Shown here piece by piece: positions 16,936-22,242 of a stretch of 64,000 bases of DNA. The notes below the pieces were generated by a model. It did no database searches. It saw nothing but the letters and a program-made list of their open reading frames with translations, and was not told where the DNA came from. How positions within the stretch are numbered: the first letter of the stretch is position 1; each line of letters opens with the position of its first letter. Source of the DNA: a virus; the IMG/VR virus record IMGVR_UViG_3300000115_000007, positions 3,871-67,870 of that record; one strand, given 5' to 3'. The position numbers and the translations under genes are program-made.

Positions 16936-17187
16936 ATGATTCGTAAATCAACACGAGCTTCTGAAATAGTTATTGATCTTGATGGTCCTAATGGTAACGC
17001 ATTTTATTTAATGGGTGTAGCAAAACAATACGCGCATTCAATGGGGATGAAAGCATCCCCTATTATGTCTGAAATGTGTGCAGGTACAGATTACTATAAA
17101 TTAGTAAAAGTATTTGAAAAATATTTTGGTCATTTCGTTGTTTTAGAAACTAGCAATCAAGAACTATTGGAATATATACAGGAATGA
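16936..17187 (+). CDS. Conserved phage protein with IDLDGPNGNAF motif
   Basis: An 83-residue protein; IVIDLDGPNGNAFYLMGVAK is a motif I associate with small uncharacterised proteins of T4-like phages. I start it at 16936 (MIRKST), consistent with that family, instead of the in-frame codon at 16906 inside the previous gene. Soluble alpha/beta; function unknown. ATGA overlap with the IscA-like gene. Confidence 0.75.
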   Translation: MIRKSTRASEIVIDLDGPNGNAFYLMGVAKQYAHSMGMKASPIMSEMCAGTDYYKLVKVFEKYFGHFVVLETSNQELLEYIQE

Positions 17188-17492
17188 TTGTATCACTTAC
17201 TGAAAAAGCAAAAGAATATATGATAACTCAGCTAGCGTTAGCCGATAAAAATTATGTACTTCTTGAAGTCAAGGGTGGGGGATGCAGCGGATTTAAATAC
17301 GATTGGACATATGTAGATGATGACTCAAAGGGGACAGTTATAGATAACACTTTAGTTATTGACGCTATGGCTGAAATGTTTTTATTTGGTTGTACGGTTG
17401 ACTATATAACCGAACTAGGTGGAAACTATTTAGTTGTAAAAAATCCACAGGCAACAGCTCAATGTGGATGTGGAGAAAGTTTTGCAGTATGA
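17184..17492 (+). CDS. A-type iron-sulfur carrier (IscA/ErpA/HesB family)
   Basis: A 102-residue protein of the usual family length. The three cluster-binding cysteines are present: Cys34 in GGGCSGF, and Cys94 and Cys96 in CGCGESF. Such carriers pass Fe-S clusters to apo-enzymes. In a phage it may support Fe-S enzymes during infection; the radical SAM enzyme at 60573 is one possible client in this window. Overlaps both neighbours by four bases. Confidence 0.92.
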   Translation: MIVSLTEKAKEYMITQLALADKNYVLLEVKGGGCSGFKYDWTYVDDDSKGTVIDNTLVIDAMAEMFLFGCTVDYITELGGNYLVVKNPQATAQCGCGESFAV

Positions 17493-17735: not shown

Positions 17736-17812
17736 GGTCCCTTAGCTCAGCTGGATAGAGCAAGTGCCTTCTAAGCACTAGGTCAGAGGTTCGAATCCTC
17801 TAGGGTCCGCCA
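17736..17812 (+). tRNA. tRNA-Arg (anticodon UCU)
   Basis: Complete cloverleaf with encoded CCA. Acceptor GGTCCCT/AGGGTCC (a U-U mismatch at pair 3-70), D arm GCTC/GAGC, anticodon arm AGTGC-CTTCTAA-GCACT (anticodon TCT at bases 34-36), T arm AGAGG-TTCGAAT-CCTCT, discriminator G. It reads AGA/AGG, codons used often in this AT-rich genome. Directly followed by the structured RNA at 17813. Confidence 0.93.
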
Positions 17813-19313: not shown

Positions 19314-19510
19314 AAGAACAATTATTGCTAGCATGTCGCATGCATGCCGAAGGTGAACTAGAAAGAGCTAAAACTAATTTTATGGTTTATTTAAATAATC
19401 CTGCTGGCATTGGCGAACATAGTGATATTGTAGAGGCTATGCAAAAAGAGCTTAGTACTATGGGTCATGCAAGTGAACGTCTTGAAATGTTAAGTAAGCA
19501 TTTTGAATGA
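19310..19510 (+). CDS. Hypothetical helical protein (66 aa)
   Basis: GTG start in the GTGA overlap with the previous gene. Predicted helical throughout (ACRMHAEGELERAKTNF, SERLEMLSKHFE). ATGA overlap with the next gene. Function unknown. Confidence 0.65.
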   Translation: MKEQLLLACRMHAEGELERAKTNFMVYLNNPAGIGEHSDIVEAMQKELSTMGHASERLEMLSKHFE

Positions 19511-20196
19511 AATATTTTATCGCTGCTCCATTTGGAAATTATATAAAACTATCAAATGTGATTAGCGTAACTGGAAGTTGGACTTATCAGAATCGTCCAG
19601 GACTATTTCCTCAGATCTTAAAAACACTTCGTTATACTAAAGATGGATGGCGAAATAAAATAGGTCTGAGGAATGCTGGAATAAAAGAAGGATTAAAGAG
19701 ATCTGGTCTCAATGATGTTTTAAGTTTAGCAGCTATTGATCATTGGGACTGGATTAATCTAGATAGCATTGTTCCAAGTAATACTTCTTTAGAAATTAAT
19801 ATTAGTTGCCCTAATTTAGATAAAGATGTTGGAGCAGTTAGTTTACCAGGATTTGATTTATGGCCATCAACTAATAGAGATTGGTGTATTTGCAAAATAC
19901 CTCCTACTGCAACAGAAAGCCTTATTGATCAAATAGTTGATTCTGGCTATAGTCAAATTCATGCCAGTAATACTTTATATTCTATCCATGGAGGACAAAG
20001 TGGAAAACTATTAGTACCATACACAAATAGAATTATTGAATATATTAAAACAAAACATCCTCATGTAACAATCATCGCTGGTGGAGGTGTGACTACAAAG
20101 AAAGATGCTGAAAATTATTTTAATCGAGGTGCTAGTTATGTGAGTCTTGGATCGGTATGTTTTACACCATGGAAAATAAAAAATATTTTATCTTAG
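19507..20196 (+). CDS. Dihydroorotate-dehydrogenase-like FMN enzyme
   Basis: A 229-residue TIM-barrel type protein. LEINISCPN is the conserved substrate loop of PyrD enzymes, SNTL...GGQSGKLLVP the following FMN/substrate segment, and IIAGGGVTTKKDAENYF with GASYVSLGSVCF the phosphate-binding end. Shorter than cellular DHODH (about 300 or more residues): the N-terminal part is reduced. It would help make pyrimidines from orotate precursors during infection, or has been redirected. Family likely; activity uncertain. Confidence 0.8.
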   Translation: MKYFIAAPFGNYIKLSNVISVTGSWTYQNRPGLFPQILKTLRYTKDGWRNKIGLRNAGIKEGLKRSGLNDVLSLAAIDHWDWINLDSIVPSNTSLEINISCPNLDKDVGAVSLPGFDLWPSTNRDWCICKIPPTATESLIDQIVDSGYSQIHASNTLYSIHGGQSGKLLVPYTNRIIEYIKTKHPHVTIIAGGGVTTKKDAENYFNRGASYVSLGSVCFTPWKIKNILS

Positions 20197-20213: not shown

Positions 20214-20221
20214 TATAAATA
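20214..20221 (+). promoter_or_regulatory. Late promoter TATAAATA
   Basis: Exact TATAAATA between the DHODH-like and synthetase-like genes, 38 bases before the GTG start, so the synthetase/tRNA pair can be expressed late. Confidence 0.6.
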
Positions 20222-20258
20222 ATCTCAATTGAGCATAATACAGAGAGAGGAAATACTC

Positions 20259-21083
20259 GTGACACAATTGATTGAACCAAAAAAATTTACGAAAGCTGTT
20301 GACCTTTTAAGGTCATTTTTTTTAAATAGAGGCTTTCAAGAAGTACATACCCAAAATCGTTTAAGTATTTTAGCTGCATGTGAAGATCCAGAAAATGTAG
20401 CAACATATAATTATGAAGGGCAAATATGGCCTCTTCCTCAAACTGGCCAGATGTGGTTAGAATATGAATTATTAACTCGCCCCTCTTCGAAGGGGTTTTT
20501 TTGTATCTCAACTTCGTACAGACAAGAACCAAATGCAATTCCTGGAAGACATGATACGATTTTTCCAATGTTTGAATTTGAAATGCCAGGAGACATTAAT
20601 GATCTTAAGACTATGGAATATCAGTTATGTAATCATTTAGGTTTCGATATTCCAACAGAAAAAACGTATCGTGAATGGCAGCAACATTATGGTCTAAGTG
20701 CTACAACTGAATTAGATGCTCAGCACGAGTTAGCAATGGAAGCCAGTTTTGGTAGTTCTATGATTACTGAATTTCCAGAATTTACAAGTCCATTCTGGAA
20801 TATGTCAAGAAATGAAGATGGTACAAGTAAGAAGATTGATGTTATCCTTGGCGGCATGGAAACAATTGGTAGTGCAGAACGCAGTACTGATAAAGACCAA
20901 ATGCGGGACACATTTCATACTATTTCAAATGGGGAATATGCCGGTCTTATTAACCAGTTATTTGGTAAAGATCGTGTTGAAGCTGAACTTGAAAAGTTTC
21001 TTGAATTTGATTTCTTTCCAAGAGTTGGTGGAGGAATTGGAATGACCCGCATGATTAGTGCACTCGATACTCTTAAAAAGTAA
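20259..21083 (+). CDS. Minimal class II aminoacyl-tRNA-synthetase-like enzyme (Asx type)
   Basis: A 274-residue protein from GTG 20259, which follows AGAGAGAGG; a TTG at 20229 has no such site. Class II motifs: motif 1-like FFLNRGFQEVHT (residues 20-31); QTGQMWLE (61-68) as in Asp/Asn enzymes; motif 2 SYRQEPN...GRH with FEFE (86-108), keeping Arg88 and Glu90; a GGMETIGSAERS segment; motif 3 GGGIGMTRM with Arg264 ten residues from the end. There is no N-terminal OB anticodon-binding domain, as in archaeal asparagine synthetase (AsnRS paralogue) and EpmA. Eleven bases later comes an unusual tRNA with an Asn anticodon. Substrate could be aspartate or asparagine; whether it charges RNA is unknown. 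Confidence 0.82.
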   Translation: MTQLIEPKKFTKAVDLLRSFFLNRGFQEVHTQNRLSILAACEDPENVATYNYEGQIWPLPQTGQMWLEYELLTRPSSKGFFCISTSYRQEPNAIPGRHDTIFPMFEFEMPGDINDLKTMEYQLCNHLGFDIPTEKTYREWQQHYGLSATTELDAQHELAMEASFGSSMITEFPEFTSPFWNMSRNEDGTSKKIDVILGGMETIGSAERSTDKDQMRDTFHTISNGEYAGLINQLFGKDRVEAELEKFLEFDFFPRVGGGIGMTRMISALDTLKK

Positions 21084-21094
21084 GATAAGAATAA

Positions 21095-21204
21095 TCCAAG
21101 GTGGTGGAATAGGTAGACACGCAGCACTGTTTATGCTGTGAATATATAGTCTTAGCAAAAGAATATTTATATTCGTGTAGGTTCGAATCCTGCCCTTGGA
21201 GCCA
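21095..21204 (+). tRNA. Aberrant class-II-shaped tRNA with GUU (Asn) anticodon
   Basis: A 110-base tRNA with encoded CCA. Acceptor TCCAAGG/CCTTGGA, discriminator G. The D region TGGTGGAATAGGTAGACAC is leucine-like. Anticodon arm CAGCA-CTGTTTA-TGCTG puts GTT at 21129-21131 (Asn), with U at position 37. The variable arm is 38 bases, with a GAATATA/TATATTC stem and an inner TCTT/AAGA stem. T arm GTAGG-TTCGAAT-CCTGC. U1-A72, G73 and GUU are asparagine features, while the body is Leu/class II. Follows the Asx-synthetase-like gene by 11 bases. Confidence 0.85.
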
Positions 21205-21474: not shown

Positions 21475-22242
21475 ATGGCACAACCAATAAATCAATTAAG
21501 TTTTAAAGCCAGAAGCCTCTTGTTTGCTCAACTATCAGCAATTGCATACTCCGATTTAAAAGAAGCTAAGGCTGCAGCGCGGAGGCTCGAATTCAGTACA
21601 GTTGAATTTTATGACGTCAATGGCGCACAGGCATACAGATTTATGAATAAGTATGATTGTATCATCGCATGTCGAGGAACACAGCCTACAGAATTTAATG
21701 ACATTAAAGCTGATTTACAATCGATTCCGGTAATGGCAGAAACTGTCTCACGAGTTCATAAAGGTTTTAAAGCCGAAGTTGATGAGCTTTGGCCAGCCAT
21801 ATGCGAAGATCTAAATAGAAAACAAAATAATAGTAAAACACTTTGGTTCTGCGGGCATTCTCTTGGTGCTGGTATGGCAACTATCATGTCGTCACGATGC
21901 TTACATAATTTATTCCTAAAAGATCCAGTTGAGCTATATACATTTGGTTCTCCTCGCGTAGGATTTAAAAAATATTGTAATTCTCTTGGTGTAATTCATC
22001 ATAGGTTTGTAAATAATAACGATGTTGTCACGCGTGTGCCCTTGGTAATGATGGGCTATAGACATCATGGAACAGAGCATTATATGAATTCTAATGGAGA
22101 ATTTGTAAATGTATCTGGTCTTAAAAGATTTTGGGATAGACTAAAAGGCATGGCTGCTGGTGTCATGAAATTAAAGATAGATAACTTTAGCGATCATAGT
22201 ATGGATTGCTATATAGAGAATATAAAAAATATGAAAGAGTAA
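21475..22242 (+). CDS. Class 3 lipase (alpha/beta hydrolase)
   Basis: A 255-residue Lipase_3 protein. Nucleophile elbow GHSLGAG with Ser129, acid Asp183 in NNNDVVTRVP, and His241 in FSDHSMDCY complete the triad; CRGTQPTEFNDIKADLQ is the family's oxyanion region and YTFGSPRVG its hallmark strand. No signal peptide. With a late promoter in front, it may attack host membrane lipids at lysis, be carried in the virion, or release fatty acids. Fold and triad are solid; role is inferred. Confidence 0.9.
   Translation: MAQPINQLSFKARSLLFAQLSAIAYSDLKEAKAAARRLEFSTVEFYDVNGAQAYRFMNKYDCIIACRGTQPTEFNDIKADLQSIPVMAETVSRVHKGFKAEVDELWPAICEDLNRKQNNSKTLWFCGHSLGAGMATIMSSRCLHNLFLKDPVELYTFGSPRVGFKKYCNSLGVIHHRFVNNNDVVTRVPLVMMGYRHHGTEHYMNSNGEFVNVSGLKRFWDRLKGMAAGVMKLKIDNFSDHSMDCYIENIKNMKE

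Follow-up and report, generated by a model that had tools for sequence, protein, structure and literature searches.

A two-gene cassette of marine T4-like phages, comprising a stand-alone synthetase-like enzyme and an unusual tRNA with asparagine identity, lies in the analyzed window, 64,000 nucleotides from an IMG/VR virus record of 91.7 kb with genes for T4-like baseplate proteins. Judging from gene neighborhoods and genome content, the enzyme probably bypasses CarAB, PyrB, and PyrC and supplies PyrD with its precursor. That the pair as a whole constitutes a phage version of the de novo pyrimidine front end, with the tRNA as a carrier or source of Asx, is proposed at slightly less than even confidence; if the bypass is real, the tRNA is moderately likely to be the direct partner of the enzyme, as Asx carrier or substrate. 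The greatest uncertainty in this explanation attaches to the tRNA step, because the cellular relatives of the enzyme have no special tRNA. Measured against the literature and family libraries, what is new is the combination of a synthetase core with a private non-decoding tRNA and a pyrimidine role, the last two being predicted functions. Literature searches for the pair, for alternative pyrimidine routes, and for synthetase-like dihydroorotate enzymes found no description, and Sullivan 2010 gives no more than the name “tRNA ligase” (T4-GC 194).

The enzyme gene spans positions 20259–21083 of the forward strand, with a GTG start at 20259 and a stop codon at 21081–21083. Its product is a single PF00152 domain (tRNA-synt_2, the class II D/K/N synthetase core; E 2.3e-14) that lacks the N-terminal OB-fold anticodon-binding domain, and the arginines of motifs 2 and 3 (R88 and R264) are invariant among its relatives. 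Together with an AlphaFold2 model (pLDDT 91.6, pTM 0.89) for which AsnRS and AspRS cores are the best Foldseek matches, these features bear out the initial annotation, which had described a 274-residue class II synthetase-like core with motifs 2 and 3 and no anticodon domain. Archaeal asparagine synthetase A (AS-A; 3rex) matches the model across its full length (283 columns aligned, TMt 0.67), and both have a core-only architecture of approximately 290 residues. The top PHROG is PHROG 29758, of “unknown function” (E 9.6e-135), and the enzyme scores far under the cut-off of every curated family tried, including the asnS and aspS models (approximately 20–27 bits, cut-offs 343–414) and the asparagine synthetase A models (PRK06462, NCBIfam; 16.9 bits, cut-off 389), against which its cellular relatives attain at most 24 bits.

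The pocket sequence QTGQMWLE aligns with QSSQLYLE of AsnRS and not with QSPQLYK of AspRS, and because of this match the substrate is likely Asn-like or an inverted Asp. The class II core, the motif 2 and 3 arginines, and the QxxQxxLE pocket are thus shared with AsnRS and non-discriminating AspRS (ND-AspRS). The enzyme differs from both in the missing anticodon-binding domain, in the loop after motif 1 (EDP where AspRS and AsnRS have EGA), in the residue preceding the motif 3 arginine (T, Q, or P), and in its occurrence in genomes that already hold an AsnRS. EpmA (PoxA/GenX) and similar paralogues are likewise stand-alone class II cores, with a non-translational task of the kind proposed here, but they have other specificities and lack a private tRNA, and the pyrimidine context belongs to the family of the window enzyme.

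Eleven nucleotides after the enzyme stop codon, a class II-shaped tRNA with the asparagine identity elements U1-A72, G73, and GUU occupies positions 21095–21204 of the same strand (body 21095–21201, encoded CCA 21202–21204). Rfam identifies it as a tRNA (RF00005, 46.8 bits); ARAGORN does not report one at these positions. It combines a Leu-like D arm with a 38-nt variable arm (21139–21176) that contains the paired stem GAATATA/TATATTC. The anticodon loop, CUGUUUA (21127–21133), holds GUU at 21129–21131, keeps U33, and has a U at position 37 (21132). Across 32 diverse relatives, 99% of cells are paired in the class II fold and 20 of 24 pairs show two-sided changes; the covariation score, variable arm included, is 0.715 versus 0.193 in shuffles, and none of 500 shuffles equals it. 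The odd tRNA that had been pointed out initially is confirmed in its identity elements, D arm, variable region, and distance from the enzyme, and the covariation strongly supports its fold.

U1-A72, G73, and GUU, all three also present in bacterial tRNA-Asn, are invariant in the 140 phage tRNAs scanned, while pairs 2-71 to 5-68 vary. The variable region is 13–39 nt long in the phage tRNAs and does not correspond to the short type I loop of bacterial tRNA-Asn. tRNAs with U36 normally bear t6A37, and U33 is nearly universal. At position 37, the relatives carry U (approximately 89%), A (9%), or C (2%), and C33 replaces U33 in nine loci, which departs from the U33 and purine 37 of decoding tRNAs; of the other tRNAs in the first 80 phage loci, 78 of 78 carry a purine there. 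With U prevailing at position 37 and C33 in nine loci, selection for decoding probably does not act on the phage tRNA, whose pattern of conservation suggests selection for recognition by proteins via GUU, G73, and U1-A72. G73 and the anticodon are Asn/Asp determinants, and U1-A72 is a determinant for GatCAB (PMC9976931, PMC4206432). The phage tRNA has these determinants in common with tRNA-dependent Asn synthesis by ND-AspRS and GatCAB, but it differs from that route in its class II body, long variable arm, and U37/C33, and the phage cassette has no GatCAB gene. t6A37 excludes AspRS from tRNA-Asn in yeast (PMC9976931); by analogy, its loss in the phage tRNA might favor aspartylation.

A survey of related phages, proposed initially as a check on co-conservation, found that the two genes travel together, and the initial refuting condition, a lack of co-occurrence elsewhere, does not apply. 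From at least 598 IMG/VR homologues, two sets of 80 were analyzed. Of the 158 marine-phage loci whose downstream sequence extends for 300 nt or more, 152 have the tRNA after the enzyme, nearly always 4–12 nt from the stop codon; the tRNA is present at loci L074, L130, L136, and L175. Six marine-phage loci are without it, one of them on a 72-kb contig. The remaining neighbors are variable, any one protein family within 3 kb being limited to at most 9 of 64 representatives, and because the tRNA linkage is kept while these neighbors change, the doublet is a cassette. By tblastn against annotated phages, the enzyme is found only in the Prochlorococcus phages P-SSM2, P-SSM5, and P-SSM7 (65–70% identity) and, at 44–47%, in huge phages of two kinds; plasmids have no homologue. 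The P-SSM5 and P-SSM7 records annotate a tRNA-Asn directly after the enzyme, which is labeled “tRNA ligase”. In P-SSM2, the tRNA also directly follows the enzyme (L002:4835–4920, equivalent to approximately 162083–162168 of AY939844.2); the record places a tRNA-Asn approximately 2 kb away (164094–164179, inside PSSM2_205), which looks like an annotation offset.

In a quick FastTree tree, the tRNA-linked enzymes fall, with rare exceptions, into a single phage clade in which the tRNA was lost a few times. The pairing is a property of this clade, since a linked special tRNA is missing from the homologues in cells, in huge phages, and in a small number of marine phages; the GUU tRNAs read in the two huge phages were all of the ordinary class I kind. 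The initial interpretation is supported in part. Its private pair for non-translational use is supported by the co-occurrence in marine phages, the loss of decoding features, and the retention of GUU, but the pairing is confined to one phage clade.

The pyrimidine-synthesis setting, like U37, goes beyond the initial annotation. Upstream of the pair, the window encodes a compact PyrD-like protein of the dihydroorotate dehydrogenase (DHODH) family (19507–20196, forward strand; PF01180, E 7.7e-12), which has a homologue in the Bandiella operon enzyme-pyrF-pyrE-pyrD. The late promoter that had been assigned to TATAAATA at 20214–20221 of the forward strand is not supported: the window contains 12 copies against a shuffle mean of 13.3, and because this number is at chance level the sequence provides no evidence of a late promoter. 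Beyond the window, a scan of genome contigs gave 125 relatives, many of them 50–60% identical and from several phyla; 80 were kept, and a small number of the closest probably stem from phage contigs that were binned into MAGs. A pyr gene lies within 5 kb of the enzyme at 28 of the 80 cellular loci. The orders include enzyme-pyrF-pyrE-pyrD in Bandiella and relatives, pyrEF with pyrD and the enzyme in Aureispira, enzyme-pyrEF-pyrD in a Myxococcota MAG, and enzyme-pyrF-pyrE in Pasteurella atlantica.

Phage orders comprise pyrD-enzyme-tRNA in the window, pyrD..enzyme-tRNA-pyrE (L039/L045), pyrE..enzyme (L105), enzyme..pyrE-purM (L163), and enzyme..pyrD (L175); domain evidence covers part of these, and the short PyrE of L039, which has no family match, is named from its similarity to the operon gene of L209. 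Linkage to the enzyme varies with the type of partner, from 4 of 4 for the short PyrE and 11 of 43 for the compact PyrD to only 2 of 80 (within 10 kb) for the L105-type PyrE. The enzyme is encoded on four of 20 large phage contigs that carry PyrD or PyrE, most phage records being fragments; this share and the rare linkage to the L105-type PyrE weigh against the proposed role. Among approximately 463 T4-like cyanophage records, counted by gp23, PyrE is present in exactly the six enzyme-bearing records, which represent three phages. In published surveys, pyrE figures among the cyanophage host genes and the enzyme–tRNA pair does not appear (PMC9983427). Short PyrE-like phosphoribosyltransferases of 130–159 aa (L039:4935–5327, L045:4953–5345, L207:1810–2250, and L209:6413–6892) and compact PyrD proteins of 229–254 aa are common to phages and to pyr operons of symbionts and pathogens, and they fall under curated cut-offs.

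The enzyme and PyrB almost never occur together in the genomes compared. Among 20 enzyme-bearing genomes, PyrB, PyrC, and CarB each exceed the cut-off in one, and DHODH does so in 16; each of these families was detected in 14 of 14 control genomes. Two observations run counter to the bypass: a Coatesbacteria MAG carries the enzyme alongside normal PyrB and PyrC, and four genomes, small and perhaps incomplete, are without DHODH. The order of Aureispira provides a comparison among relatives, as the enzyme occurs in 4 of its 80 genomes and PyrB in none of these four versus 71 of the 76 others, giving a Fisher value, C(9,4)/C(80,4), of approximately 8e-5 that ignores phylogeny. Apparent PyrC proteins in the Aureispira lineage look like allantoinase or dihydropyrimidinase, and apparent PyrB proteins in two genomes like ornithine carbamoyltransferase, on the basis of motifs and neighbors. 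Relative to CarAB-PyrB-PyrC, the enzyme appears to feed the same PyrD, PyrE, and PyrF, but, as their mutual exclusivity suggests, a single synthetase-like protein would stand in for three unrelated enzymes.

In the proposed mechanism, the AsnRS/AspRS-derived core would activate an Asp- or Asn-type substrate with ATP and make the PyrD precursor, either dihydroorotate or the compound one step earlier, thereby substituting for CarAB, PyrB, and PyrC. Dihydroorotate is asparagine plus one carbonyl that bridges its two nitrogens. A conceivable chemistry would convert Asx-tRNA (or Asn), bicarbonate, and ATP to dihydroorotate, with the Asx-adenylating core closing the ring with bicarbonate, comparable to the ureido ring closure of dethiobiotin synthetase; alternatively, the core would cyclize carbamoyl-aspartate. 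In marine T4-like phages, the enzyme would act with the dedicated Asn-identity tRNA. The enzyme is itself unlikely to read GUU because it has no anticodon domain, and for the same reason the invariant anticodon would need another reader, most likely host AspRS or AsnRS. U1-A72 would let host GatCAB turn Asp-tRNA into Asn-tRNA, and the altered loop (U37, C33) would exclude the tRNA from translation, leaving it as an Asx carrier or source for the enzyme. Charged by the host and perhaps amidated by GatCAB, it would bring Asx to the enzyme without competition from the ribosome. Some bacteria make Asn only on tRNA (PMC4206432), and a private tRNA would therefore be useful. The reaction, the charger of the tRNA, and the use of the charged tRNA by the enzyme are predicted parts of this scheme. 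The complete scheme, a tRNA-dependent pyrimidine biosynthesis in which a synthetase-derived enzyme turns Asx on a dedicated non-decoding tRNA into dihydroorotate and so bypasses CarAB, PyrB, and PyrC, is possible and is advanced tentatively.

If correct, the bypass would open another route to pyrimidines in several bacterial phyla and in abundant ocean viruses and would explain UMP synthesis in organisms that have pyrD, pyrE, and pyrF but not carAB, pyrB, or pyrC. A virus equipped with it would sidestep the feedback-controlled steps of its host. If the tRNA acts as the carrier, it would exemplify a natural tRNA that has left decoding but remains under a strict identity constraint and, to our knowledge, would form the first known link between a tRNA and nucleotide synthesis. 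The presence of the pair in P-SSM2 and P-SSM7 places it in cultured cyanophages.

A rather unlikely alternative retains the pyrimidine bypass for the enzyme and makes the tRNA not a substrate but a co-transcribed gene with another task, for example to supply Asn in general, to regulate, or to provide a tRNA-Asn that resists nucleases. It draws on the cellular homologues, which have the same active site and no linked special tRNA, and on the few marine phages without the tRNA. Conserved motifs are identical in enzymes with and without a linked tRNA, and the few residues that distinguish the two groups lie outside these motifs. No cellular enzyme gene has an adjacent special tRNA except in a Methylophilaceae MAG (G017). 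When a covariance model of the phage tRNA was run on the 20 cellular genomes, 30 of the many matches were read and were tRNA-Leu (UAA, CAA, UAG, or GAG anticodons, A73), with no class II Asn tRNA among them outside G017. Against mere co-transcription stand the persistence of the linkage in 152 of 158 loci while all other neighbors change and the invariance of Asn identity despite the lost decoding features.

A dedicated AsnRS:tRNA-Asn pair for translation, in which the enzyme would charge the tRNA with Asn for AAY codons and perhaps allow escape from host tRNases, is improbable. The AsnRS-like pocket and the complete Asn identity set would suit it, as would the proposal that phage tRNAs with altered anticodon loops escape tRNases (PMC10264068). 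However, the enzyme has no anticodon domain despite the invariance of GUU, U37 and C33 are unfit for decoding, and the pyrimidine context and the exclusivity with PyrB are left unexplained. AsnRS, moreover, exceeds the cut-off in 10 of the 20 enzyme-bearing cellular genomes, so the enzyme is not an AsnRS replacement.

AS-A works without tRNA, and a free asparagine synthetase of this archaeal kind, located near pyr genes because Asn is needed or because the genes belong to one nitrogen regulon, is quite improbable. Such a function would agree with the likeness of the enzyme to archaeal AS-A (PDB 3p8t, 3rex), an AsnRS/AspRS-derived core of approximately 280 residues that also lacks the anticodon domain and matches in structure over its full length, and with a weak similarity to NCBIfam asparagine synthetase A. 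Yet 17–24 bits or so against a cut-off of 389 place the family far from AS-A, as do the linkage to pyrimidine genes and, in phages, to the tRNA, and the loss of PyrB, PyrC, and CarAB with PyrD, PyrE, and PyrF retained would find no explanation. The initial annotation had offered an asparagine synthetase beside an unrelated tRNA; given the clear linkage of the tRNA, this is unlikely. That the tRNA is a decoy for nucleases or other proteins that read the anticodon, maintained with the help of the enzyme, is highly improbable: GUU is kept while the remaining loop drifts and the special tRNA hardly occurs outside phages, but an anticodon-loop decoy would not need invariant U1-A72 and G73, cellular homologues sit in pyr operons without the special tRNA, and neither decoy nor reassignment, both raised initially, gained positive support.

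Several minor observations concern the surroundings of the enzyme. In the Methylophilaceae MAG (G017, locus L229), a class II GUU tRNA lies 244 nt downstream of the enzyme, and CarB, PyrB, PyrE, and DHODH are split or contain many in-frame stops, which may reflect a degenerate pathway, recoding, or assembly errors. In the 735-kb phage LR756501 (L004:4973–6535), a RimK-like ATP-grasp protein (PF08443, E 1.7e-20) follows the enzyme, and there is no linked tRNA. In one phage group (L010, L011, and L013–L016), a gene starting with MIPVID comes after the pair; in L013 and L014, the tRNA is gone and this gene begins at the enzyme stop codon. The window also encodes an iron-sulfur cluster biosynthesis protein (17184–17492; PF01521, E 5.1e-10) near a tRNA-Arg(UCU) at 17736–17812. 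A lipase is encoded close downstream of the pair in the window (21475–22242; Lipase_3, E 1.7e-21) and also in P-SSM2 and P-SSM5, where it is annotated as “lipase”.
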